The notes below the pieces were generated by a model. The model was not told the origin of the DNA. It saw only the letters and a list, made by a program, of their open reading frames with translations, and ran no database searches. Shown piece by piece: positions 531-39,689 of a stretch of 46,215 bases of DNA. Position 1 is the stretch's first letter. Each line of letters opens with the position of its first letter. The stretch spans positions 1 to 46,215 of the forward strand of contig JAFZFO010000022.1 of NCBI GenBank assembly GCA_017555845.1, given 5' to 3'. The DNA comes from Bacteroidaceae bacterium. GTDB lineage: Bacteria > Bacteroidota > Bacteroidia > Bacteroidales > Bacteroidaceae. The translations under genes and the position numbers were made by a program.

Positions 531-3500
531 TTACTTGACCAAGACCTTTTTGCCTTCGATGATGTAAATTCCTTTGCTTGGAGTTTCGACCTTTCTACCC
601 TGCAAATCGTAAATAGCTTTTACCTTTGACTTGCGTCGACCGTTGGTTCCGTTTTCAGCTTTCACCTCATCAACGCCTGTCTCTACGTCCACTGCATCAA
701 TGCGGAAATGGTTGCTGTAGTTGCCACTATATCCCTCGGAACCCGACCATGCGTCGAATGCACCCGACGCCATGAGGATGATTGAACCATCGTTGCCGTT
801 GGCTCTCTTGCTAACGATGTAGTATCTGTCGGCAACAGATGCCTGGTTGATGCTCCAGTCGCAATAGGTTGCATTGTAAGTAGCAAGTGTACCGCTATTG
901 TTGTTGTAGCCGTAGTTGCCACCGGCACGCCAAATCATATAGAGCTGTGCCTTCTCATTAAAAAAACTGTACTTGCCACTTGCCTCCTTCTTGCAAAGAA
1001 ACTGCGCTGACTCGCCAAGATCGGCAGCCGAAGATGTGCTCACCTCAAGGACATTGCTGTCATTGATGTAAAGCGCGCGCTCAGTACCCGACTGCTGTAC
1101 GTTGGTAAAGGTGAGAACCTTGCCGTCCCACTTGTCGGCAGGCTTGTTGCCCGCGAACACAGCATAGACAGCATCGAGCTCGGCCGGTGTTGGCTTCTCG
1201 CTCAAGGCAGCAAGCGCTGCTGCAAGAGCATCCTTATTGTCGGCTGACATGCCGGCCTCATCGGCCAAGGCATTGAAGTACTCACGTACGAATGCACGCT
1301 GGTCAACATCGCGCTTGATGCTGTAAGCACCGTTTGTGATGTATTCAAGGTCATAGGCAACATAGAGGTTGTCGAAACCGTCAAAGTTGTGCTGTCCGGC
1401 GCCTGTAGGGAAGCTTGTAGATACAGGGTTATCGCGTTTGCCGAAGCCTGTGAGTGTCTCCTCATAGATGAAACCGATGCGGTCATCGGCCTGAAGGTCC
1501 ATTGAGCTGTATGCCGAAGAGGTGTTGCTCACCTGGAAGTAGCCGTTCCAACCGTTAGCGAAGTTGGCAACAGTATTGAAATCGGCAAGCTCGGTCAACT
1601 CCTTGTAGAAGATACCAACGTTTGTGCGGCCGCTGCCTGTAGGCAATGACTGCAGAACAAGGTACATCTCCTTGCTGTCGCTGTTGCGCTGTACGGGAAC
1701 AACGAGAATCTCGCCATTGGTTGAGTTGCCGCCGGGTGTGAGACCCGAGCCTGCGAAAGTACTCTTTACATCGGTACTCCACTCGCCCTCGCCTGTGAGG
1801 GTGTTGCTATAGGTGTAGATGTTATAGATGCGGCCACCGCCAACACGGCTCGAGAGGATTACGCGGCCATCGGGCAACTCCTCGCACTTTGGCTCATCGC
1901 CGCCGGGAGCAGGGAGTGCATGTGCACCACCAAGGGCGTGCCATGTCTTGCCGAAGTCATCGGAATAGACAACGCGGTTACCGTTTGGGCGTGCACACAT
2001 GGCAGCATAGAGGCGGTAATACTTGTCCTTCTTTACAATGCGGCTCTGGAATACCTTACCGCCACCCACGAATGCCGACTGGATTGGGTTGCCGGCATCG
2101 AAAAGGCTGTAGATATCCTCGGTAACGTTGATTGGCTCCTCCCAAGTCTCGCCATTGTCCTTGCTGAGGATGGTGGCAATGAGGTTAGGGTTCTGGCGTG
2201 TGGTGTTGCCATTGCCATACACGGTACAGCCGGCAACTGCAATGATGAGTACCTCGTCGCTTGTGCGGTCGGCAACAATGGCAGGGTCACCGAATGCAGT
2301 ATCGAAATAGTTCACGGTTGCCGATGTGCGGCCTGTACCCACAGCAACATCAATCATGTCGCTCCATGTTGCACCGTGGTCGTCGCTTGTGCGGCATACT
2401 ACGTCAACCTGTCCGTAACCGGGATCGGTACCGCATACAAGACGCGCTGCGGCTGTTATAAGGCGACCATTGCTTGCTGTTGAGATACCGGGAATACGAT
2501 AAGGAGGAATCACACCATCGCCCTTACTTGTGTTGTAGAGGTCCTGTTTCTTTGGTGTCGCAAGAGTACTGATATTGTACACAGTGATTGTAGTGCCCTC
2601 GACCTTTACATCGGCACCCTTCAACACGTTGCCAACCATGTCTACTGCAAGCATTGACTCATCGATGGCAGAGGTTGTGATGAAGAAACCGCCATTGAAG
2701 GCCTTCTCGCCTGTAGTGTTGTTGATGACATATACATCGGCATTGTCCTCAACAACTACTTCATAGATATTCTTGCCCTCAATGTCCACCTGCTCTATAC
2801 GCCACAGGTTATCATCGGCTGTAGCAGGACCTGCAGCCCATGTGGTGAGGTGCTCGATACCACCTACCATATAACTTGAGTTATTGTTTGAGCAGTTCAA
2901 TGCTTCATTGAAGTAGTAGTAGCTGACACCACCATATTCGTAGATGTTGGCAATGCCAAGCTCGCTGAACGAACCCAGCAACGAAGCATTTGCACCACCT
3001 GCGACAATGGGGTTTCCGTCGCCGTTCTTGATGCCTACCTTGCCACCACCAAGCGAAGTGATGTGCCAGATACCATTGTTGGTTGTCACTTTAGTATCGG
3101 ACTGCAGAGTGAAACGCTGGCCGTTGCCTGTGTGGGTTGCATTGTTATAGAGGTGCTCCTTACGTGCTGTAGCCTTGCTGATAAGATGATAGTATCCGGT
3201 TGCGATAGTTGCAGGCTCGGGTATCTCAACCTCGAGACCGTTGAGGAATGCCTCGAGATCCTCAACCAATGCAGCACAATCCTCGCCTGCGACAGAACCT
3301 ATAAAGCGGCCAAGCAGGGTGTTGAGTTTATAGAGCTTATCTGCATTGTCGCTATACTCCTCGCGGAGAATCTGGATCTTCTCGTACTGATGGATACCCT
3401 CGATAAGGCGCTCGAAGCGTACGCTTGAACGGTTGCCTGGATAGTAGCAGTATGTATCGCCCGAGCCGAACTTACGGTAGCGGCTGTCGGTAAGCGGATC

Positions 3501-5555
3501 CTCGTCCCAGTTCATCCATGACCAGTGCAAGTAACCGTCGAGGTTCATCTTTGCCGCATAGATTGGCAGATAGGCAGCCTCGGCAGGATATGAGTTTGTA
3601 TAGATATTGGGCTCGCTGTTGGCACAACTGGTGTAGAATGTTGTGATGCGGTTCTTTGACTTGCGGTCGGCAAGCTGTGCGGCTGTGATGTAGTGCTCCT
3701 GACCGAGCTGCACGCACTTGTCGTGAAGGATGTCACAGAGCGCACTGTGGTAGTTACCCGCCAAAGCCATCTTGAAGCCAAGAGCGTTTGCAATCTCATG
3801 TGCCTTGAGCATTGCGGCCTCGCCACGCTCATCGACAGCGATGACAGTCTTCTCGAACCAGCCTTTCTGCTGCAAGTGAGCCTTGAATGCTGTGAGGAAG
3901 CTTGTCCACAACTCGCGGTACTCTGTAGAAGAATATGTAGTAGTGAGGTTCTTGTAGCTGTTTGAAGCCTCATCGAAATAGCGGAAGCTCATGTCCCATG
4001 GCAACATGCTGAAGCAGTTGATCTGCTTGTTGATGCCATACTCGGCACAAAGCTCTACATATTTGTCGAAAATTTCATAGTCATACTCCCAAGTGCCGTT
4101 GCTCTTCTTTGTTGTGAGAACCATCGGGTCAAAGAGGTCGTGTGTCTGCTCGCCCCATGGCTCATAGAAAAGGATTGCGCTGACAACACGCTGGCCGGCA
4201 CGGCCAAGAGCAGCGAGATATGGGCGCAGAGCCTCGAGGTGCTCATCGCTCCAACGCTCTACCTGATAGTAACGGCTAACGGCGTAGGGCTGCTGCCAGA
4301 AGTCGAGATGGAACTTCTGATCGGCCACTGTTGGCAATGAGTGGCTGTTGACATTCACTTTGAGAGTGAGGCTCTTTACCACGTTGCCGTTCTTGTCGAC
4401 AACCTCAAGGGCTGTTGTGTATTCGCCGGCCTCGATGTCGCGTGGAACCTCAACGGTACACCACACGGGGCGTGTCTCCATTGCAGGGACAGCATGTGGC
4501 TTGTCCTGGTCAATGACATCGGCTACCAACCATGTCGGCATGGTCATTGAGTTGTTGCCGCAAGAGGTAAAGTCATCGGTAATGACATAATTTACAAAGC
4601 GTGCCTCGGCTGCATTGATGCCGGTTGCCTTGCCATCCTTCTGCCATTCTGTCATGCGTACAGCGAGTGTATCCTGGTTGCTCTTGCTATAGAGGACTGC
4701 CTGAACATTGGCACGCTCGCCCTTCCATGCGTGGATTGTGGCAACATCCTTCTGTGCAACCTGTGGTACCTCGTGCAACTTATAGTGTACATCACGTGAT
4801 GCCCATGTAGCGTTGAGACCTGCAGGCAATGCATTCCATGATGCCTCGTCGGGTACTGTGCCCACACGTGGCTCGGCATAATTGTCAATTGGATAGCCAC
4901 CCTCTACCTCATCATTGGCCACGCCGTTGATTTTGAGTGTGACATCGATGATGGCGCCACCGTCACTGATGAAGTTGGCATAGGAGCCCGAAGGGTCGAT
5001 GCTATTCCACTGGATGGCATAACGCATGCGGTAGGTTGAGCCCTGCTCAAGACCCTCGGGGACGCGGAATGAACCGGGAGCGAGCACATCGCCGCTGCTC
5101 TGGTAAATACCGGCGCTGTTCCAGCCTGTATCGCCATTGGTATTCTTGCCATAGAGCGACCAGCACATGAGTTCGTTGCCCTCGCCCTTTGTGTATGGGC
5201 CATTACCCTCGAGGTTAACCTCGAACTGTTTGCTGTTGTCCCAATCGACAAACACATAGCCATGCATCCATGCACCGTTGATTGCAATGAGGGGAGTTAC
5301 GGTCTCGCCGCTCTTTACCTCAAAGACGGTTGATGTCTTGTCAAAATAGGCCGCGCAACGTGGTGCCGAAGCAATGTTGCTGAGCTGTTGTTGTGGACTT
5401 TGTGTACCTACAATGCCCACTGTCTTTGGATAGTGGGTTGCGTGGGTCACGTTCACATCGGCACCGTGCTTGACATAATAGTCGCTCTGCGCAGTCGCGC
5501 CCATGCTGATGAACATGGCCGACAAAGCCGAAAGAAGAATTGATTTGAGTTTCAT
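531..5555 (-). CDS. Secreted two-enzyme glycosidase: GH123/DUF4091-like domain fused to a GH33 sialidase, with a type IX-like tail
   Basis: This 1674-aa exported protein appears to carry two catalytic modules. Residues 1-22 are a signal peptide. Residues about 50-215 are a beta-rich adhesion-type region. Residues about 225-760 resemble the GH123/DUF4091 family (beta-N-acetylgalactosaminidases), including an adjacent Asp575-Glu576 pair (VDERGE) of the kind GH123 uses for substrate-assisted catalysis. Residues about 780-1000 form a beta-rich linker. Residues about 1005-1390 are a GH33 sialidase propeller with YRIPGIS near 1018 (the sialidase RIP motif), three Asp boxes (SDDHGATW, SKDNGETW, SDDFGKTW), an acidic stretch before LPDGR, and a late Tyr-Glu (GFIYEE). 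The C-terminus (YDLQGRK...KGIYIIEGKK) is like Prevotella type IX secretion tails. Family knowledge suggests release of terminal sialic acid and beta-GalNAc from host glycans. Pairing both on one substrate is inference. The GH33 call is firm; the GH123 call is fairly confident. Confidence 0.88.
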   Translation of the reverse strand: MKLKSILLSALSAMFISMGATAQSDYYVKHGADVNVTHATHYPKTVGIVGTQSPQQQLSNIASAPRCAAYFDKTSTVFEVKSGETVTPLIAINGAWMHGYVFVDWDNSKQFEVNLEGNGPYTKGEGNELMCWSLYGKNTNGDTGWNSAGIYQSSGDVLAPGSFRVPEGLEQGSTYRMRYAIQWNSIDPSGSYANFISDGGAIIDVTLKINGVANDEVEGGYPIDNYAEPRVGTVPDEASWNALPAGLNATWASRDVHYKLHEVPQVAQKDVATIHAWKGERANVQAVLYSKSNQDTLAVRMTEWQKDGKATGINAAEARFVNYVITDDFTSCGNNSMTMPTWLVADVIDQDKPHAVPAMETRPVWCTVEVPRDIEAGEYTTALEVVDKNGNVVKSLTLKVNVNSHSLPTVADQKFHLDFWQQPYAVSRYYQVERWSDEHLEALRPYLAALGRAGQRVVSAILFYEPWGEQTHDLFDPMVLTTKKSNGTWEYDYEIFDKYVELCAEYGINKQINCFSMLPWDMSFRYFDEASNSYKNLTTTYSSTEYRELWTSFLTAFKAHLQQKGWFEKTVIAVDERGEAAMLKAHEIANALGFKMALAGNYHSALCDILHDKCVQLGQEHYITAAQLADRKSKNRITTFYTSCANSEPNIYTNSYPAEAAYLPIYAAKMNLDGYLHWSWMNWDEDPLTDSRYRKFGSGDTYCYYPGNRSSVRFERLIEGIHQYEKIQILREEYSDNADKLYKLNTLLGRFIGSVAGEDCAALVEDLEAFLNGLEVEIPEPATIATGYYHLISKATARKEHLYNNATHTGNGQRFTLQSDTKVTTNNGIWHITSLGGGKVGIKNGDGNPIVAGGANASLLGSFSELGIANIYEYGGVSYYYFNEALNCSNNNSSYMVGGIEHLTTWAAGPATADDNLWRIEQVDIEGKNIYEVVVEDNADVYVINNTTGEKAFNGGFFITTSAIDESMLAVDMVGNVLKGADVKVEGTTITVYNISTLATPKKQDLYNTSKGDGVIPPYRIPGISTASNGRLITAAARLVCGTDPGYGQVDVVCRTSDDHGATWSDMIDVAVGTGRTSATVNYFDTAFGDPAIVADRTSDEVLIIAVAGCTVYGNGNTTRQNPNLIATILSKDNGETWEEPINVTEDIYSLFDAGNPIQSAFVGGGKVFQSRIVKKDKYYRLYAAMCARPNGNRVVYSDDFGKTWHALGGAHALPAPGGDEPKCEELPDGRVILSSRVGGGRIYNIYTYSNTLTGEGEWSTDVKSTFAGSGLTPGGNSTNGEILVVPVQRNSDSKEMYLVLQSLPTGSGRTNVGIFYKELTELADFNTVANFANGWNGYFQVSNTSSAYSSMDLQADDRIGFIYEETLTGFGKRDNPVSTSFPTGAGQHNFDGFDNLYVAYDLEYITNGAYSIKRDVDQRAFVREYFNALADEAGMSADNKDALAAALAALSEKPTPAELDAVYAVFAGNKPADKWDGKVLTFTNVQQSGTERALYINDSNVLEVSTSSAADLGESAQFLCKKEASGKYSFFNEKAQLYMIWRAGGNYGYNNNSGTLATYNATYCDWSINQASVADRYYIVSKRANGNDGSIILMASGAFDAWSGSEGYSGNYSNHFRIDAVDVETGVDEVKAENGTNGRRKSKVKAIYDLQGRKVETPSKGIYIIEGKKVLVK

Positions 5556-5713: not shown

Positions 5714-7360
5714 TTAAAATTCGAAGGAAATATTATTGCACTCGAGTGCAATAACGCCCTTGCCGGCAGGGTGGACAAAGGAGATGCGCGATGCATGGAG
5801 CATGAGCCTTTCGCCGGCCGTGCCATAGAGTGAATCGCCGAGAATTGGGCAGTCGAGCCCGTCCTTGTGGGCTGCATGGACGCGCAGCTGATGGGTGCGG
5901 CCCGTAACGGGCTCAAAGTGCACGACAGCACATTGACGGCCATTACGCTCAACAGTGCCGATGACCTTGTAACGTGTTACGACAGGCTTGCCATTGACGG
6001 TATCGACCTTTTGGCGCGGACGGTTGTCGTAATCGGGCGCAAGGGGCAGTTCAATGGTTCCTTCGCTCTTAACGGGCACACCATCAAGTATGGCGGTGTA
6101 CAGTTTCTTGACCTCGCGACCGGCAAAGGAGCGTTGCAGTTCCTTGTAGACCTCCATTGACTTTGCAGCCACAAGAAGTCCAGATGTCGCCATATCGAGA
6201 CGGTGCGCGACAAAGAGTTCGTTGCTGTGCAGATAGCAATCGCGCAGCCACTGCTGCACCGACATTCCGCCCATGATACCGGGCACGGAGAGCACGCCCG
6301 AGGGTTTGTCGACAACCACTATGTGTTCATCCTCAAAGATAATATTGATGCTGCTTATATCGCCGCCCTTTTCGAGGGCATTCTCATCGACATCGAGCCC
6401 CTGAAGCATGAAGCCGAGGATGGGCTCGCACTTGCTCTTGCAAGCGCCATAGAAACAGCCGTCGCGGCGCACCTCGCCGGCAGGCGACGCACCAATCCAG
6501 AACTCGGCTACAGCAATGGGTGTCAAGGAGTTGAGATAGGCATACTGCAGGAGTTTGGGCGCAGCGCACTCCCCTGCCCCACCCGGCGGAATGATGCCCG
6601 AATGTTGGGCAAAAATATCGAGCAGACTCTTTTCACTACCACTGCCGTTGAGCATCTTGAACTGCTCGAAGAGCCAACGTTGCAGAGCGGCTGAACGGCG
6701 CTTGCGCTCCTCCTTCATTGCGGCAATGGAGGCCTTGAAAGGAGCAACGGCGGCCTCGCACCCGGCAAGTTGCTGCAGCCACCTTGCAGTGGTGCGTTTG
6801 AGCTCGGCCTTCTGGTACTGGCTTTCGCGCACCAAGGCGGCCTCATCGGCGGCCGAGAGGTTACCGGCGGCACGCAACTCACTGCGGCGTTGCTTGTCAA
6901 GACGCATATCCTCGCGCATGGCGGCAAGCTGCTGTTCCATAGCGCGTTTCACATCAGCGACAGCGGCAACAGCAGCAATATATCCTTCACTGCATTCCGT
7001 ATCCTTGATTCTTTTGTTGAGGGCTGTAATCCCGCTCTCCTCCTGCTTGAAATAGCCACCGGGAGATTGCAGGTCGAAGACCGGCGGAACAAAGCCCGCA
7101 ACATTGTTGCTGCCGGCAAGAAGCCCCGAGAAAGCGGCAAGATAGCCAAGTGAGCCGGAGGCGTCGCGCACGACAAGGACACCGAACATCTTGCCCCTGG
7201 CGGCATCGGCAGCAAGGGCGCTGTCGAGCGAGAGCATATCGCGCACCTCGCCGGCCGCCATCATGCAAAGGGGATGGGGCGAATAGTAAAAAGGGTTGTT
7301 GAAGCGCTGTGGCGCTTCAACAACCGATATATCTGATTTGAAACGGTGGAGCAATGACAT
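5714..7360 (-). CDS. RluA-family RNA pseudouridine synthase with a long N-terminal extension
   Basis: This 548-aa protein has an RluA-type pseudouridine synthase domain in its C-terminal 220 residues. That domain begins at about IIFEDEHIVVVDKPSG and contains the catalytic-Asp motif HRLDMATSGLL, followed by the family motif GRTHQLRVH. The first 310 or so residues are an Ala/Arg-rich, partly coiled-coil extension seen in long Bacteroidetes and Vibrio RluA homologues. The enzyme should isomerise uridine in rRNA or tRNA in the cytoplasm; the site cannot be told from sequence. The ATG overlaps the stop of the upstream GH110 gene by one base (TGATG), so translation is probably coupled. A TTG codon one triplet earlier would extend the frame but is less likely as the start. 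Confidence 0.88.
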   Translation of the reverse strand: MSLLHRFKSDISVVEAPQRFNNPFYYSPHPLCMMAAGEVRDMLSLDSALAADAARGKMFGVLVVRDASGSLGYLAAFSGLLAGSNNVAGFVPPVFDLQSPGGYFKQEESGITALNKRIKDTECSEGYIAAVAAVADVKRAMEQQLAAMREDMRLDKQRRSELRAAGNLSAADEAALVRESQYQKAELKRTTARWLQQLAGCEAAVAPFKASIAAMKEERKRRSAALQRWLFEQFKMLNGSGSEKSLLDIFAQHSGIIPPGGAGECAAPKLLQYAYLNSLTPIAVAEFWIGASPAGEVRRDGCFYGACKSKCEPILGFMLQGLDVDENALEKGGDISSINIIFEDEHIVVVDKPSGVLSVPGIMGGMSVQQWLRDCYLHSNELFVAHRLDMATSGLLVAAKSMEVYKELQRSFAGREVKKLYTAILDGVPVKSEGTIELPLAPDYDNRPRQKVDTVNGKPVVTRYKVIGTVERNGRQCAVVHFEPVTGRTHQLRVHAAHKDGLDCPILGDSLYGTAGERLMLHASRISFVHPAGKGVIALECNNISFEF

Positions 7361-9186
7361 CAATAGCGGTACATTACATCCTTCTGCTCATCGAAGCCGG
7401 TAGAGAAGTCGTTGTCCTCGATGGTGACGTTTACAACCTTGTCGAGCAAGAAACGGTATTTGTTCCAGTGGAATGGAGCAAAGTCGTTGTTCTGAACCAC
7501 CTTGTTGCCACGGAACACAAGTCCGTCGATGGACTTTGCATAGACAATGGGGGCATCGAAAGTCTCGAACACGTTGTTCTCAATGACCACACCCTTGCCG
7601 TCGCCGCCATGGAAATACTTTGTCTGCGATGCGAGATCGGGGATTTCGGGGTAGATTGAGATTATACCGTTTGTAAACTGGAACATGCTTGTGAGGGCAT
7701 TGACAAAACGGTTGTTGCGGATAACGACATCGCGGCAGGCACCGGTCTCGAACCAGCCGTTGCAGTCGCCGCAAAGCAAGATTGCAGTACCTGATGTGTG
7801 GTCAAAGAGGTTATTCTCCACGAGTGTGCTCTTTGGAGTGCTGAACAATGCACCACGGGCGCGGTTGTTGCGGATTGTATTGCCGGCGAAATAGACCTCG
7901 GGGGTCCACTCGAGGTTCTCGATACCATACTTTCCGTTGGCGATGTCGGCCGGCAACGGTTTCTCGAACTTGATCTTGAACTCCTTGCAGCCGGCAAGCT
8001 GATCCTTGTCGTATGGTGCAATCTCAACGACGCGGTTGCCCTCGGTAATCTCCATGACATCGGAACGTACGAACTGCACGCTGTCGCCCTCGCCGCCCCA
8101 GTAGAAACCATAGGCCTGACCATGCATGTAACGGCCAACAAGAGTATTGTCATCGAGACGGTCCACTACGCGGAGGTAGGTACCATGAACGTTGATGGCA
8201 TCGTCCATCATACCCTCATACAAGCCGTTGACTGACACGATTTTACCCTTGCAGCCCGAGAAGTGTGTGGCATCGGCCTGTGTAGTGAAGTAACGGCCGT
8301 CGTCGCCGCGGAGTGCGACATTGAAACCGTCGAGTGTGAGATTCTCGCTCATCTGGGCAAGCAAGCCCATACCCTCGGCATAGAACACGCATGAGTTCAA
8401 CAGTGTTGTGTTCTTGCATTCTGTAACAAAAATGCCGGGTGTTGGACGGGCATAAGAGCGCATGGCTATTACACTGCCCGGAACAAGGCGATGGTCGCGC
8501 CAAGGAGCACGTATCACATATGGTTCGACCTCCTGGACACCCGATGTACCGACACCGATGTCGCTGGTGGTATAGATGATGCGTTTTGTATCGCCCTCAA
8601 AGGCAATACCCCAACCGGGAACAAAGTTCCAGTTGCTGCCATAGACAACGAGGTAGCCGTTTTCGATGCGGTAGTTGGCGTATGGCGCTATGCGGTAGGT
8701 TATATATCCGTTCTCGACATCATTCTCAAGGACCTCGACCTGTGTAATTTGAGGAACGCGTGTGTCGACGGCAATATTCTCAAGTTTACAGTTCTCGCAA
8801 CCGACCATTGCGATGGGCAACATGCGGCCGTTCATCATGAAGTTGGCATAGCCTTCGCCGGCACCCTTGACAGTGAGGTTACGGACACCCTCCAGGGCTA
8901 CCGCCACAAGCTTGGGATTGTCCTGGTCGTGGTTGCTGACGTAGTATTCGCGCACATTGGCACTGTCGGGGTAGAAATCGTACTCACCGGACTCAAGCAC
9001 AAGGACTGCAGGCTTGCCGTCACACTCGGCCTTGATGGTTTCGATGGCAAGAGCGACCTCCTGGGTCATATCCTCGCCGGTACCGGGCACAACACCGAAA
9101 TCGGATGCATAATAAACCTTTTCAACACCGCAAGATGCCAAAGTGAGCAACAGCGATGAACAGACTGTAAAAAATATCTTTTTCAT
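7360..9186 (-). CDS. glaB: GH110 alpha-1,3-galactosidase lipoprotein (GlaB-like)
   Basis: This 608-aa protein starts with a lipoprotein signal (LLLTLASC, Cys19). The rest is a parallel beta-helix matching GH110 enzymes of gut Bacteroides and Akkermansia that remove terminal alpha-1,3-linked galactose, for example from blood group B or linear alpha-Gal. Hallmarks are SYARPTPGIFVTECKNT (about 244-260), YAEGMGLLAQ, the acidic TTQADATHF (about 301-309) and EGMMDDAINVHGTYL (about 324-338), which hold the likely catalytic acids. Substrate range within GH110 (branched B antigen only, or also linear alpha-Gal) cannot be set from sequence. It is the first gene of a two-gene unit with the pseudouridine synthase. 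Divergent from secA, with a possible -7 box at 9203-9210. Confidence 0.87.
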   Translation of the reverse strand: MKKIFFTVCSSLLLTLASCGVEKVYYASDFGVVPGTGEDMTQEVALAIETIKAECDGKPAVLVLESGEYDFYPDSANVREYYVSNHDQDNPKLVAVALEGVRNLTVKGAGEGYANFMMNGRMLPIAMVGCENCKLENIAVDTRVPQITQVEVLENDVENGYITYRIAPYANYRIENGYLVVYGSNWNFVPGWGIAFEGDTKRIIYTTSDIGVGTSGVQEVEPYVIRAPWRDHRLVPGSVIAMRSYARPTPGIFVTECKNTTLLNSCVFYAEGMGLLAQMSENLTLDGFNVALRGDDGRYFTTQADATHFSGCKGKIVSVNGLYEGMMDDAINVHGTYLRVVDRLDDNTLVGRYMHGQAYGFYWGGEGDSVQFVRSDVMEITEGNRVVEIAPYDKDQLAGCKEFKIKFEKPLPADIANGKYGIENLEWTPEVYFAGNTIRNNRARGALFSTPKSTLVENNLFDHTSGTAILLCGDCNGWFETGACRDVVIRNNRFVNALTSMFQFTNGIISIYPEIPDLASQTKYFHGGDGKGVVIENNVFETFDAPIVYAKSIDGLVFRGNKVVQNNDFAPFHWNKYRFLLDKVVNVTIEDNDFSTGFDEQKDVMYRY

Positions 9187-34899: not shown

Positions 34900-35817
34900 A
34901 TGGAAAAGATTATCGGCTTGATTGATGCCCCTTTTACTCCATTTTATGAGAACGGCGAAGTGAATTACGAACCAATTCCTGCATACGCACAGATGCTTGC
35001 CAAGAATGGCATGAAAGGCGTATTCATCAACGGTTCATCGGGCGAGGGTTACATGCTTACCGAGGAGGAGCGCATAAAGCTTACCGAGGCTTGGGTGGCT
35101 GCAGCCCCCGAGGGTTTCAAAATCATTGTTCACGTTGGTAGCACATGTGTCAAATCGAGCCGCAGAATGGCAGAGCATGCACAGAAGATGGGTGTGTTCG
35201 GTATTGGTGCAATGGCGCCTCCATTCCCAAAGGTAGGCCGTGTTGAAGAGCTTGTTAAATATTGCGAGGAGATTGCATCGGCAGCCCCCGAATTGCCATT
35301 CTACTTCTACCACATCCCTGCATTCAACGGTGCATTCCTTCCAATGGTAAAGTTCCTTGAGGCTGTTGACGGCCGCATCCCCAACTTCGCGGGTATCAAG
35401 TATACATTCGAGAGCCTTTACGAATATAACCAGTGCCGTCTGTACAAGAACGGCAAGTTCGACATGCTCCACGGCCAGGATGAGACAATCCTTCCTTGCC
35501 TTGCCATGGGCGGCGCACAGGGTGGTATCGGCGGTACAACCAACTACAACGGCTGCAACCTTGCCGGCATCATCGATGCATGGAATGCCGGCGACCTTGA
35601 GAAGGCACGCGAACTGCAGAACTTCTCACAGGAGGTCATCAACGTCATCTGCCACTATCGCGGCAACATCGTTGGCGGCAAGCGCATCATGAAACTCATT
35701 GGTCTTGACCTTGGCAAGAACCGCACTCCATTCCAGAACATGACCGACGAAGAGGAGGCTGCAATGCGCAAGGAACTCGAGGCTATCAACTTCTTCGAGC
35801 GTTGCAACAAGTTATAA
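34900..35817 (+). CDS. nanA: N-acetylneuraminate lyase
   Basis: This 305-aa cytoplasmic class I aldolase splits N-acetylneuraminate into ManNAc and pyruvate. The dihydrodipicolinate-synthase-fold motifs are present: INGSSGEGYMLT (GSSGE 45-49, pyruvate carboxylate binding), the catalytic Tyr137 in YFYHIP and the Schiff-base Lys167 in GIKYTF, spaced as in known lyases. The length is normal. It is the first gene of the nan operon, divergent from trmO. It feeds the AGE epimerase encoded next. In Bacteroides the equivalent gene is called nanL. Confidence 0.95.
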   Translation: MEKIIGLIDAPFTPFYENGEVNYEPIPAYAQMLAKNGMKGVFINGSSGEGYMLTEEERIKLTEAWVAAAPEGFKIIVHVGSTCVKSSRRMAEHAQKMGVFGIGAMAPPFPKVGRVEELVKYCEEIASAAPELPFYFYHIPAFNGAFLPMVKFLEAVDGRIPNFAGIKYTFESLYEYNQCRLYKNGKFDMLHGQDETILPCLAMGGAQGGIGGTTNYNGCNLAGIIDAWNAGDLEKARELQNFSQEVINVICHYRGNIVGGKRIMKLIGLDLGKNRTPFQNMTDEEEAAMRKELEAINFFERCNKL

Positions 35818-35828
35818 AAACATTTACA

Positions 35829-35846
35829 GGGCGGGGCTACCCGCCC
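35829..35846 (+). repeat. Intercistronic GC hairpin between lyase and epimerase genes
   Basis: GGGCGGG (35829-35835) pairs with CCCGCCC (35840-35846) around GCTA, 20 nt before the next ATG. No U-run. Probably an mRNA stability or processing element. Confidence 0.6.
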
Positions 35847-35866
35847 CTATATAATACGACAATAAT

Positions 35867-37048
35867 ATGAATTGGAATGAATATCTGAACGGTTGGGCGC
35901 AGCAGTACCGCGACGACCTTGTAAACAATATTATGCCTTTCTGGCTCAAGAACGGACTCGACCGCGTGAACGGTGGTGTATACACTTGTGTCGACCGCGA
36001 CGGTTCACTCATCGACAGCACCAAATCGGTGTGGTTCCAAGGCCGTTTTGCCTTTGTATGCAGTTTTGCATACAACACTGTTGAAAAGAACCCCGAGTGG
36101 CTTGCAGCCGCAAAGAGCACAATCGATTTCATTGAGGCACACTGCTTCGACACCGATGGCCGCATGTACTTTGAAGTTATGGCCGACGGCACACCGCTAC
36201 GCAAGCGCCGCTATGTATTCTCGGAGAGTTTTGCTGCCATTGCCATGGCCGAGTATGCAAAGGCAAGCGGCGACATGACATATGCCCAGAAGGCACTTGA
36301 CCTTTTCAAGGACATACGCAAGTTCGTTGCCACACCGGGCTACATGGAGCCCAAGTACTTGCCATCACTGCAGGCTAAGGGCCACTCATTGGTAATGATC
36401 CTCATCAACACCGCATCGCGCATACGCAACGTCATCAGCGACCCTGTACTCGACCAGCAGATTGACGAGTCAATAGCATCGCTCAAAGATTTCATGAAGC
36501 CCGAGTTCGAGGCATTGCTTGAGATGGTTGGCCCCAACGGCGAGTTCATCGACACCATCAACGGACGCCTCATTAACCCGGGACACTGCATTGAGACAGC
36601 GTGGTTCCTGCTCGAGGAGGCCAAGCACCGCGGTTGGGACAAGGAACTTACACAGCAGGCCCTGCAGATTCTCGATTGGTCATGGGAATGGGGCTGGGAC
36701 AAGCAGTATGGAGGTATCATCAACTTCCGCGACTGCCGTAACCTTCCACCACAGGACTACTCTCAGGACATGAAGTTCTGGTGGCCACAGACCGAGGCCA
36801 TCATCGCCACACTCTATGCCTACGAGGCAACAGGCGACGACAAGTACCTCATCTGGCACAAGCAGATAAGCGAGTGGACATACGCCCACTTCCCCGATGC
36901 CGAATATGGCGAGTGGTACGGTTACCTGCACCGCGACGGCACCGTGGCACAGCCTGCCAAGGGTAACATCTTCAAAGGACCATTCCACATTCCACGTATG
37001 ATGATCAAGTCATTCGAACTGTGCAACATCCTCACAGAAGAAAAGTAA
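35867..37048 (+). CDS. nanE: AGE-family N-acylglucosamine 2-epimerase
   Basis: This 393-aa alpha/alpha-barrel enzyme should convert ManNAc to GlcNAc, the step after the lyase in the Bacteroides NanLET pathway, in which no ManNAc kinase is needed first. Family marks are WFQGRFAFVCSFAY (active-site Arg), FSESFAAIAMAEYA, NPGHCIETAWFLLEEA with the catalytic His, FWWPQTEAIIATLYAY, and the C-terminal GPFHIPRMM with the second His. The length is typical. It is called nanE by role and is not homologous to the E. coli NanE (ManNAc-6-P epimerase). Confidence 0.92.
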   Translation: MNWNEYLNGWAQQYRDDLVNNIMPFWLKNGLDRVNGGVYTCVDRDGSLIDSTKSVWFQGRFAFVCSFAYNTVEKNPEWLAAAKSTIDFIEAHCFDTDGRMYFEVMADGTPLRKRRYVFSESFAAIAMAEYAKASGDMTYAQKALDLFKDIRKFVATPGYMEPKYLPSLQAKGHSLVMILINTASRIRNVISDPVLDQQIDESIASLKDFMKPEFEALLEMVGPNGEFIDTINGRLINPGHCIETAWFLLEEAKHRGWDKELTQQALQILDWSWEWGWDKQYGGIINFRDCRNLPPQDYSQDMKFWWPQTEAIIATLYAYEATGDDKYLIWHKQISEWTYAHFPDAEYGEWYGYLHRDGTVAQPAKGNIFKGPFHIPRMMIKSFELCNILTEEK

Positions 37049-37098
37049 AAGAGCCGGTCATCATAAATGACGGCAACCTATTATAAACAATAAGACAC

Positions 37099-37147
37099 AG
37101 ACCACCTCCACCCCCTGCCTGACAAATGGAGCGAGAGGTGGTCTTTT
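37099..37147 (+). terminator. Terminator or attenuator-like hairpin before the sialic acid transporter gene
   Basis: AGACCACCTC (37099-37108) pairs perfectly with GAGGTGGTCT (37135-37144) over 10 bp with a 26-nt loop, then T4 in all (37144-37147). It ends 7 nt before the transporter ATG, so it would both attenuate transcription and mask translation. Whether it separates the two genes or regulates the third is unknown. Confidence 0.65.
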
Positions 37148-37154
37148 ACAATTT

Positions 37155-39689
37155 ATGAAAAAATACATAACTCTATCACTCCTTCTCCTTTGTTCAATGC
37201 TTGGCATGGCACAGAACCGCATTTCAGTGTCGCCAGCACAGCCATTGGACAATGCAGTCTCGGGGCACTATGCAGCCTGGACAAATGAAGGACTTGCGAC
37301 CTACGGAGGATGCAACTTCCCCGACGTACCCTGTGCCGATGGCGGACAGAAAGTATACTACCCACGTGCCTATGGCGCCAGCGTGCAAGTGCCCGGCGGT
37401 GCCGTGTATCTTGGCGGAATGGACTCAACTGCTTCAATCAGCGAGTGCCTGTTCATCAATGCCACCGATGGTGCGGCCACCCCAATCGCATCATTGCCTG
37501 TGGCATTGGACAACTTTGCAGCCACCTATTACGACGGCATGCTTTGGGTAGCCGGAGGACAGACCAACGGCACTCCAAACAAGAATGTGTACGCATTGGC
37601 ATTGTCAAGCGGAAATGTGAAAGCGGAAAGCAGTGGCAATGAATGGGCTGTTGTTGCCACACTGCCCGATGAGTGCCGCCTGCAGCCTTGCGTTACCGTA
37701 CAGAATACTGCCGCCGGCTATGCGCTCTTTGTCTTTGGCGGATACCAGCCAAAAGCCGAAGGCATGGAAGCCAAGGTGCACACCGATGGTGTATACATGA
37801 CCATCGCCGAACTGAAGAAAGGCGTTGCAGCACAATGGAAGCGCACTTCTCCGACATTGGCATGGATTGACAATGCCACGGATGGCAAGCGCAAGCAGAA
37901 TATTCAGGCCGTTGTGGGCAGCACATGCAGCCCTGTAGGTTACAGCCACGTGCTGTTCTTTGGTGGTGTCAACCACGACATTTTCCTCAGCGCCATCGAA
38001 GGCAAGCAGGACAGCCTGTACCTGCGTCATGAGCCACAGTGGTACAACTTCCGCGAGGACGTACTCACCTACCACACCATTACCGACTCATGGGGAATAT
38101 TGCCGGGCAACAGCCTGCTTGCACGTGCCGGTGCCTGCCTGACACCGGAGGTTGGAGGCAAGGGTTGGAGCTACAGCGGCGGCGAACTGATGCCGGGTGT
38201 ACGTAGCACAGACGTGACACACATTGAAGTAAGTAACGAAAAGAGTTTCGGATGGCTCAACTGGACAGTCCTTGCACTGTACCTTGTTGCCATGCTGGGA
38301 ATGGGATTCTACTTCATGCGCAAGGAGAATGGCGCCGAAGACTTTTTCAAGGGCGGCGGCCGCATCCCATGGTGGGCTGCAGGTATCAGCATCTATGCCA
38401 CAATGCTCTCGGCCATCACATACATGACCATCCCAGCCAAAGCATACACCACCAACTGGACATACTACCCAATGCTGTGGATGATTCTGCTTGTGAGCTT
38501 CCCAGTAATAAAGTACTACCTACCCTATTTCCGCAAGCTCAACGTAACAAGTGCATACGAGATACTTGAGCAACGTTTCAACCTCTTTACCCGCATGCTG
38601 GCATCTACGCTGTTCTGCATCTTCATGATCGTGCGTATGGCCATAGTACTCTATCTCCCATCATTGGCACTCACAGCCGTGACAGGAATAGACATCTACA
38701 TGTGCATTGTACTTATGGGACTGGTTACCATTGTATATTGTACCATGGGTGGTGTGGAGGCTGTCATCTGGGGCGATGTGGTGCAGGGCCTTATACTTGT
38801 CTTTGGAGCACTCTTTGCCGTTGTATACCTGGCAATGGGTACCGAAGGTGGAATCGGCGGTTGCATTGACATTGCATTGGAGAACGACAAACTGCGATTG
38901 TTCGACTGGAGCAACACATGGTCACAGGCTACATGGTGGGTAATCATACTCGGTGGCCTTGCCAACAACCTCATATCATACACCTCGGACCAGACCGTCA
39001 TCCAGCGCTACCTCACCACTCCCGACGAGAAATCGGCCGGCCGTGGAATCCTGGTAAACGGTGTAATGAGCGTGTTTGTCTCTGTGGCATTCTATATGAT
39101 TGGTACCGGTCTCTATACATTCTACAAGACCCACCCCGCCGAACTTGATATCACAATGGGACAGTCCGATGCCATCTTCCCATTCTTCATGATGAGCCAG
39201 ATGCCTGCCGGTATTGCCGGAGCACTCATTGCAGCCATCTTTGCAGCAACCATGAGCACCATCTCAAGCAACATCAACAGCGTGGCAACTGCGTTCTCCA
39301 TCGACTTCTGGAAGCGTTTCCGCCCCACTACTACCGATTCACAGACCGTAGTTGTTGCACGTTGGGCATCAGTTGTCAGCGGTATGGTAGGCCTGGTGCT
39401 TGCACTCCTCATGGCAACTTGGGACATACAGTCGTTCCTGGACTTCTTCAATGAAATCCTGGGATTGCTTACCAGCGGTTTGGGCGGCTTGTTCTTCATT
39501 GCCGTATTCATGAAACGCGTCAAGGGCTACGCTGCACTTGCCGGTTTCGTGGCTGGCGAAGCTGTAGTGTTCATGATGAGCGAATATACCGATGCCAATT
39601 TCCTGCTCTTTGGAGCAATTGGTATGGCAGTTTGCATTGTTGTGGCATGGTTGCTCTCGCTCGGCTCATATTTCAAGAGCAGCAAGTAA
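37155..39689 (+). CDS. Fusion of a NanM-like Kelch mutarotase and a sodium:solute symporter, probable sialic acid transporter
   Basis: This 844-aa protein joins two functions. A signal peptide (about 1-20) leads into a periplasmic six-bladed Kelch propeller (about 25-350) with Gly-Gly blades TYGGCNFPD, YLGGMDS, WVAGGQTNG, FVFGGYQPK, LFFGGVNHD and YSGGELMPG, like YjhT/NanM, which converts alpha-Neu5Ac to the beta form. From about 366, WLNWTVLALYLVAMLGMGFYF opens a sodium:solute symporter (SSS family, about 13 helices) with the conserved GGRIPWWAAGISIYATMLSAITY and the later SDQTVIQRYLTT. Its place after nanA and the AGE gene makes sialic acid the likely cargo. One polypeptide would handle anomer conversion and import. 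Such fusions occur in other Bacteroidetes; I rely on memory for this. Confidence 0.88.
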   Translation: MKKYITLSLLLLCSMLGMAQNRISVSPAQPLDNAVSGHYAAWTNEGLATYGGCNFPDVPCADGGQKVYYPRAYGASVQVPGGAVYLGGMDSTASISECLFINATDGAATPIASLPVALDNFAATYYDGMLWVAGGQTNGTPNKNVYALALSSGNVKAESSGNEWAVVATLPDECRLQPCVTVQNTAAGYALFVFGGYQPKAEGMEAKVHTDGVYMTIAELKKGVAAQWKRTSPTLAWIDNATDGKRKQNIQAVVGSTCSPVGYSHVLFFGGVNHDIFLSAIEGKQDSLYLRHEPQWYNFREDVLTYHTITDSWGILPGNSLLARAGACLTPEVGGKGWSYSGGELMPGVRSTDVTHIEVSNEKSFGWLNWTVLALYLVAMLGMGFYFMRKENGAEDFFKGGGRIPWWAAGISIYATMLSAITYMTIPAKAYTTNWTYYPMLWMILLVSFPVIKYYLPYFRKLNVTSAYEILEQRFNLFTRMLASTLFCIFMIVRMAIVLYLPSLALTAVTGIDIYMCIVLMGLVTIVYCTMGGVEAVIWGDVVQGLILVFGALFAVVYLAMGTEGGIGGCIDIALENDKLRLFDWSNTWSQATWWVIILGGLANNLISYTSDQTVIQRYLTTPDEKSAGRGILVNGVMSVFVSVAFYMIGTGLYTFYKTHPAELDITMGQSDAIFPFFMMSQMPAGIAGALIAAIFAATMSTISSNINSVATAFSIDFWKRFRPTTTDSQTVVVARWASVVSGMVGLVLALLMATWDIQSFLDFFNEILGLLTSGLGGLFFIAVFMKRVKGYAALAGFVAGEAVVFMMSEYTDANFLLFGAIGMAVCIVVAWLLSLGSYFKSSK

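Follow-up and report, generated by a model that had tools for sequence, protein, structure and literature searches.

A contig from a Bacteroidaceae bacterium (GenBank assembly GCA_017555845.1, JAFZFO010000022.1; its whole 46,215-nucleotide length is called the window here) encodes a single protein in which a family 123 glycoside hydrolase (GH123) precedes a family 33 sialidase (GH33). The open reading frame (ORF) occupies positions 531-5555 of the minus strand, starts with ATG and encodes 1,674 residues, the first of which read as a signal peptide and hence suggest secretion. By analogy with SiaBb3, a protein of Bifidobacterium bifidum, we consider it rather likely that the fusion is a secreted two-step exo-glycosidase, probably exported by the type IX secretion system (T9SS), that acts most likely on Sda- and GM2-type glycan ends. 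Sequences from relatives, in addition, point to the same two enzyme families having been joined separately more than once. The fusion is ordinary in its parts, its motifs are confirmed and its central idea was pre-empted by SiaBb3; new here are its occurrence beyond Bifidobacterium, its spread through a single genus and the evidence of repeated separate joining.

GH123 and GH33 domains in one polypeptide

The gene and the features of its product are laid out as follows.

531..5555, minus strand: whole gene, 1,674 amino acids; the stop codon is 531-533
5487..5555, minus strand: signal-peptide-like N terminus, residues 1-23, judged by sequence inspection alone
4890..5489, minus strand: N-terminal domain, residues 23-222, with a weak GEVED match at residues 100-193 (19.6 bits; cut-off 24.4)
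4398..4805, minus strand: GH123 N-terminal domain, residues 251-386 (Pfam PF22680)
3366..4298, minus strand: GH123 catalytic domain, residues 420-730 (Pfam PF13320)
3828..3833, minus strand: catalytic pair D575-E576, from aligned GH123 rows and PDB alignments
3468..3470, minus strand: F696, at the position of W482 of BvGH123, from the alignment to 5l7r and GH123 rows
2547..3248, minus strand: linker region, residues 770-1003, a predicted β-trefoil (ricin-B-like) plus a small β domain
1440..2612, minus strand: GH33 sialidase propeller, residues 982-1372, from profile and structure matches
2496..2498, minus strand: R1020 of the Arg-Ile-Pro (RIP) motif, an Arg in all 53 GH33 rows
2364..2387, minus strand: Asp box 1, SDDHGATW, residues 1057-1064, strict motif
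2142..2165, minus strand: Asp box 2, SKDNGETW, residues 1131-1138, strict motif
1941..1964, minus strand: Asp box 3, SDDFGKTW, residues 1198-1205, strict motif
1893..1895, minus strand: E1221, a Glu in all 53 GH33 rows and probably the partner of the nucleophile
1509..1511, minus strand: Y1349, probably the nucleophile; of the 53 GH33 rows, 51 have Tyr and two a gap
681..1133, minus strand: second predicted β-trefoil, about residues 1475-1625, from a model of fair quality
534..683, minus strand: C-terminal tail, residues 1625-1674, likely a T9SS sorting signal

An earlier note on this DNA, made from the letters alone, had described one secreted protein with a GH123 and a GH33 half, and Pfam and PDB matches fully support the assignment of the two halves to these families. 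Both GH123 domains scored far above their Pfam cut-offs: GH123_cat (PF13320) matched residues 420-730 with 321.5 bits (E 8.7e-96; cut-off 23.1) and GH123_N_2 (PF22680) matched residues 251-386 with 120.7 bits (E 5.4e-35; cut-off 27). Among solved structures, PDB 5l7r matched residues 234-740 at about 42% identity (E 3.1e-124), and 5fqe also matched this half (E 7e-58). We take 5l7r to be BvGH123 (the entry itself is titled glycoside hydrolase) and 5fqe to be CpNga123. The adjacent Asp575-Glu576, which the note had proposed as the catalytic pair, aligns with the D-E of both structures; entry 5fqg has N-Q in place of D-E, and the remainder of the printed alignment is alike by eye. D575, E576, W420, W467 and Q470 are invariant in all 87 aligned GH123 rows, and W520 is Trp in 78 of them. 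The N-terminal half is GH123, and it is predicted to hydrolyze β-linked N-acetylgalactosamine (GalNAc).

Residue numbers of 5l7r were transferred with an offset that we presume from D361; the other named 5l7r letters then fit. Excerpts of PMC11087588 assign stabilization of the 2-acetamido group to the GH123 Asp and the acid/base role to the Glu, and they name W206, W253, Q256, W306 and W482 as substrate residues of BvGH123. Four of these five GalNAc-binding residues (W206, W253, Q256 and W306) are identical in the fusion, and W482 is replaced by F696. BvGH123 and CpNga123 thus share the GH123 alignment and the D-E pair with the fusion; they differ in being described as plain GH123 enzymes with no sialidase part and in carrying Trp, in 5fqe by our by-eye reading of the alignment, where the fusion has F696.

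The solved sialidase PDB 10qf matched residues 982-1371 (E 1.8e-67), and E-values as small as those of the two halves exclude chance. The RIP motif at R1020 and the strict Asp boxes at residues 1057, 1131 and 1198 were found where the note had placed them. Pfam BNR_2 scored 28.2 bits, slightly under its cut-off of 31.4, and a single BNR repeat exceeded its own (28.7 versus 27). The best profile, NCBIfam NF052328 (NeuramTDE0471 equivalog), reached 272.4 bits against a whole-protein cut-off of 900. Because BNR_2 falls under its cut-off and NF052328 reaches 272 of 900, we regard the propeller as an atypical GH33. The likeness to NeuramTDE0471-type sialidases and to 10qf, the best solved match, is limited to the GH33 half.

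The residue set of a sialidase is complete in the propeller: the RIP arginine R1020, which would form an arginine triad with R1237 and R1310, the pair E1221/Y1349, and D1044 as the acid/base. These roles are presumed from other GH33 enzymes; excerpts of PMC12856340 were also drawn on. In a 24-row alignment R1020, E1221, R1237, R1310 and Y1349 are invariant, and conservation is higher in both catalytic domains than in the linker or the C-terminal part. Among the 53 GH33 rows, R1237 is present in all, R1310 in 50 (two gaps, one Ser) and D1044 in 48. The ratio of nonsynonymous to synonymous substitution rates (dN/dS), a rough measure here with dS close to saturation, was low in both halves in four pairwise comparisons (0.031-0.098 for GH123 and 0.029-0.056 for GH33).

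The minus strand and the modules besides GH123 and GH33 are additions to the note's description. Stretches resembling the N-terminal domain (residues 23-222) are present in other proteins of the same genome. In a predicted fold, the linker (residues 770-1003) had a mean predicted local distance difference test (pLDDT) score of 90 and gave weak matches to ricin-B-like and other β-trefoil structures (five at E ≤ 0.001, the best 1.2e-4), with template modeling scores by target of about 0.6 against single-trefoil chains. The model of residues 1390-1674 was only fair (mean pLDDT 69.7), and it matched β-trefoils as well (26 at E ≤ 0.001). Fifteen further places of the genome encode tails similar to that formed by the last 50 residues, and the T9SS component SprA was also found in this genome. 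None of the T9SS tail family models in the Pfam and NCBIfam scans matched the protein, and for that reason we grade its export by the T9SS as likely and no higher.

Spread and origins of the fusion

To follow the fusion in relatives, we surveyed 399 genomes of the family for matches at E ≤ 1e-50; few places were scored per genome, and the counts are minima. The fusion protein had a match in 194 of the 399 genomes. Among the matches listed, which extend down to about E 1e-114, at least 25 genomes hold both domains in one frame in the window's order: 20 in the window's own genus, where 34 genomes were listed with a match, two each in genera g30 and g11, and one in g16. Three further fusions (in G390, G067 and G268) are broken by contig ends or frame breaks. 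A survey of the order, whose sample partly overlaps that of the family, gave matches in 49 of 393 genomes, and fusions of the window's type are present in two genomes of another family, G937 and G1170 (the latter with a stop in its N-terminal part). An assembly artefact was ruled out as the source of the fusion by a full-length, single-frame match in 17 genomes of the genus, its own included. A 1,287-residue GH123 frame in G085 consists of two ORFs flanking a stop and is no fusion.

The window type varies among its carriers. The versions in G134 and G334 have longer C-terminal ends (frames of 2,024 and 2,033 residues). In G326 (L039) and G231 (L040), the protein comprises GH123, linker and sorting tail, and GH33 is absent from both the frame and the fetched flank; these two loci look as if GH33 had been cleanly excised. 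G937 and G1170 also encode giant GH33 proteins close to the window's GH33 (L136:3111-12065 and L137, with frames of at least 2,985 and at least 2,632 residues), and that of G937 contains ten InlB-type B-repeats.

Samples from more distant bacteria gave no such fusion. Among 394 Actinomycetes genomes there were 12 matches, nine to the GH123 part, three to the GH33 part and none to both; nine genomes of a genus marked by GH112 (a marker present in 1 of the 394) gave three weak GH33 matches and no fusion. In a Lentisphaerae-centred phylum sample, 60 of 382 genomes matched, GH33 was absent from the five listed frames above 900 residues, and the remaining listed frames measured at most 832. A fusion common wherever GH123 occurs was not seen in these 382 genomes; such samples can overlook rare fusions. 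GH123 has other partners elsewhere: a GH89 (NAGLU) domain in a 1,302-residue frame of G013 (L157:5590-9495), DUF4838 in a 1,743-residue frame of G1474 from the Lentisphaerae-centred sample (L185:2531-7759) and, an odd pairing, a YidC-type membrane insertase joined to a GH123 catalytic domain in two genomes of that sample (L186:2560-5841 and L187:1737-5018; 1,094 residues each).

Two further types of GH123-GH33 protein were found in the family. One has the reversed order, GH33 then GH123 (G353 and G386; frames of 963 and 975 residues). The other, in G026, joins GH123 to a canonical GH33 in a 1,326-residue frame (BNR_2 98.5 bits, four Asp boxes), and this GH33 is 27% identical to the window's. 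In G311 the GH33 and GH123 genes lie side by side on the same strand, unfused. All fused GH123s found fall in one 46-row subclade of a tree of 82 of the 87 rows made by a quick method, and a careful tree of 38 rows recovered this single subclade again. The position of F696 is Phe in 44 of the 46 rows, Tyr in L143 and Trp in L089; outside the subclade, the other rows of the 87 usually have Trp and sometimes Phe or Tyr. Pfam scans of 14 of the 46 rows gave GH33 as the only catalytic partner.

We compared groupings of the three types with approximately unbiased (AU) tests on trees from which nested unfused rows had been removed (28 rows for GH123, 31 for GH33). Grouping all three types together was rejected by both GH123 (p = 0.018) and GH33 (p = 1.5e-4). 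The window and reversed types as one group were rejected by GH123 (p-AU 0.007), and the window and canonical types by GH33 (p = 2.5e-7). What speaks against separate joining is that each of these two groupings was tolerated by the other domain: GH33 did not reject window plus reversed (p = 0.085), and GH123 did not reject window plus canonical (p = 0.124). Reversed plus canonical was rejected by GH33 (p = 9e-6) in a test with the nested rows included. Earlier tests with those rows gave p ≤ 9e-6 for every grouping; the values involving the window type are inflated, since unfused rows nest within it and the window type alone was rejected as well (p = 4e-6). All of these p-values are guides only, because the groups were defined with the architectures and a first tree already in view and because a long branch carries the canonical GH33 row. 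Separate joining has independent support from the reversed domain order and from the distant GH33.

Proposed two-step action and its alternatives

The Sda antigen is abundant on human colonic mucin. According to excerpts of a 2025 paper (PMC12856340), use of Sda by gut microbes was previously unknown, and SiaBb3 strips both GM2 and mucin Sda as one protein, N-acetylneuraminic acid (Neu5Ac) first and then GalNAc; it converts GM2 to lactosylceramide, and a GH33-dead mutant leaves Sda intact. The same excerpts describe NgaP, a GH123 alone, as active on GA2 and inactive on GM2. Uhgb_GH123 (BACPLE_01933) of Bacteroides plebeius is likewise a GH123 from the gut for which excerpts of PMC7531118 describe activity on GM2 that has lost its sialic acid: it cuts asialo-GM2 and Gb4-type sugars and not GM2. 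What sets it apart from the fusion is that it was tested as a lone GH123, which the sialic acid of GM2 blocked. Akkermansia has two GH33 enzymes with activity on Sda; of five β-N-acetylhexosaminidases active on GA2, only a single one, a GH20, tolerates the Sda sialic acid (excerpts of PMC11790493). Excerpts of PMC12997984 and PMC12715198 added no direct evidence. Because GH123s alone are blocked by sialic acid, the natural order would be sialidase first, which explains why joining the two enzymes could pay.

On this model, the GH33 propeller of the fusion would first remove an α-linked sialic acid, and the GH123 barrel would then remove the β-GalNAc that it had shielded, cleaving with the D-E pair and the assistance of the substrate's own 2-acetamido group. 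The two predicted β-trefoils may anchor the enzyme to mucin-type glycans. As natural substrate, GalNAcβ1-4(Neu5Acα2-3)Gal would be the most likely, found as Sda/Cad on the O-glycans of mucin and in GM2-like ends, and both steps would leave a bare β-galactose. The freed Neu5Ac could feed the NanA-like, epimerase-like and symporter genes of the window.

The likeness to SiaBb3 can be traced in the published description (excerpts of PMC12856340), in which that protein, too, is a single secreted-type polypeptide with GH123 before GH33, an adjacent D-E pair, three complete Asp boxes and a Glu-to-Tyr spacing of 128 (E1430-Y1558 there, E1221-Y1349 here). Its sialidase is likewise atypical: CAZy does not list the homolog BBPR_1596 under GH33. 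SiaBb3 differs in having a sortase motif and membrane span, where the fusion has a T9SS-like tail, a GEVED-like domain and two predicted β-trefoils. The Glu-to-Tyr spacing is 124-133 in window-like GH33 sequences, 106-107 in canonical ones and 116 in one row, so that the value of 128 hints that SiaBb3 has the window's GH33 subtype; its first-half spacing of 189, if Y1241 is the RIP tyrosine as we assumed, fits canonical GH33 better. The comparison is with the description and not between sequences, and we claim neither kinship nor independence. The 19-base pattern of the published SiaBb3 reverse primer had 25 hits in a contig scan, none of them in a Bifidobacterium-titled record. Among the open-licence PMC papers listed by literature searches, judged by titles and abstract starts, PMC12856340 was the sole one on a GH123-GH33 protein and none reported such a protein from Bacteroidota, which is weak as evidence of absence.

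The earlier note had proposed a dedicated two-step enzyme for Sda and GM2-type glycans. The two-step part stands by analogy, with SiaBb3 and with the lone GH123s that sialic acid blocks; it is not new, because the mechanism of SiaBb3 was shown in 2025. The word "dedicated" is not borne out, since SiaBb3 also cuts non-Sda sialylated O-glycans (PMC12856340, excerpts) and some relatives have GH123 without GH33. Both of these points weigh against the proposed reading, as do the preference of SiaBb3 for 6'- over 3'-sialyllactose, the unmatched T9SS tail models, the unfused GH123 of G338 nested within the window-type clade, the GH33 genes without GH123 nested within the window-type GH33 clade, and two other fusions in the window's own genome, one of GH33 with GH20 and one of GH33 with a GDSL esterase. 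The many GH123s that stand alone, like the relatives lacking GH33, speak against a strict coupling of the two enzymes.

Some of these observations suit other explanations. Sequential action could serve another glycan, above all sialyl-LacdiNAc (Neu5Acα2-6GalNAcβ1-4GlcNAc), which exists on host glycoproteins and in which the sialidase would uncap GalNAc for the GH123. The roughly 20-fold preference of SiaBb3 for α2-6- over α2-3-sialyllactose (PMC12856340, excerpts) and the equal cleavage of β1-3- and β1-4-linked GalNAc by Uhgb_GH123 alone (PMC7531118, excerpts) would fit such a substrate. We nevertheless think it quite unlikely: SiaBb3 made lactosylceramide from GM2 and removed the Sda signals of mucin (PMC12856340, excerpts), and no GH123 paper on sialyl-LacdiNAc surfaced, no search having been aimed at that name. 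The fusion could also be one of convenience, in which two independent mucin enzymes share an export signal and binding modules and have no common substrate. Multi-enzyme sialidases are habitual in this genome, which has GH20-GH33, GDSL-GH33 and GH33-only giants with similar tails, so a fusion need not imply one substrate; some relatives do without GH33, GH33 genes lacking GH123 also persist, and GH123 is fused to GH89 in G013. Against this, the two families have been joined in both domain orders and from two lineages of GH33, and GH33 was the sole catalytic partner in the 14 scanned subclade rows; we judge mere convenience improbable.

An inactive half acting as a glycan-binding module would agree with the atypical GH33 scores, BNR_2 under its cut-off and NF052328 far under. 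The sialidase residues invariant in 24 of 24 rows, the D-E pair present in 87 of 87 and the low dN/dS of both halves make a dead half very hard to credit. Two-step removal of Neu5Ac and GalNAc from Sda- and GM2-type ends is the reading that we prefer.

Genomic surroundings and significance

Two neighbouring features of the window bear on glycan use.

7360..9186, minus strand: GH110-type α-1,3-galactosidase, a separate protein, from a profile search
34900..39689, plus strand: sialic-acid use genes (NanA-like lyase, GlcNAc 2-epimerase-like protein and NanM-like Kelch-symporter), from profile searches

The fusion gene is adjoined by a pseudouridine synthase gene and the GH110-type gene; these two share a strand and overlap at 7360-7363, where the GH110-type gene ends and the pseudouridine synthase ORF has its listed TTG start. 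Of 17 loci (13 of the window type), those of G214 and G312 retain this gene neighbourhood and that of G296 retains part of it; several of the loci are too short to judge. The sialic-acid use genes lie about 29 kb from the fusion gene, and their exact functions are inferred, as they scored below the cut-offs of the specific NCBIfam models. Right after the NanA-like and epimerase-like genes, a single 844-residue protein (37155-39689) joins a NanM-like Kelch domain to a sodium/solute symporter close to PDB 5nv9, which we take to be the sialic acid transporter SiaT.

The GH20-GH33 and GDSL-GH33 fusions are among five further GH33 frames of the genome (2.08 Mb, 83% complete). The former is an 1,882-residue hexosaminidase-sialidase protein on contig C10 (L009:9861-15509). 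It is possibly an alternative route to the same kind of glycan end, an idea drawn from the Akkermansia GH20 that tolerates the Sda sialic acid. On contig C44, a GDSL esterase domain is fused to a canonical GH33 (L010:7601-12259), and the next gene encodes a GDSL plus SASA protein (L010:12380-14464); these are possibly sialate O-acetylesterases beside a sialidase.

More tentatively, and with considerable room for doubt, the Sda end may be a lock with two keys that bacteria have opened time and again by the same means. On this view, the GH123 subclade with Phe or Tyr at the F696 position would be adapted to desialylated Sda and would have acquired a sialidase partner on three or more separate occasions within one bacterial order, using both domain orders and two lineages of GH33, with Bifidobacterium perhaps a further case; its carriers would form a guild of dedicated Sda feeders recognizable in genomes. 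If the two-step function is true, Sda use would be no quirk of half the B. bifidum strains, given the spread of the fusion in another genus and the separate fusions. GH123 and GH33 in one frame, with Phe at the W482 place, would then be a genomic marker of Sda users and would help to interpret the effects of B4GALNT2 on the microbiota. The natural versions in both domain orders allow one to ask whether the linkage of the two sites matters.

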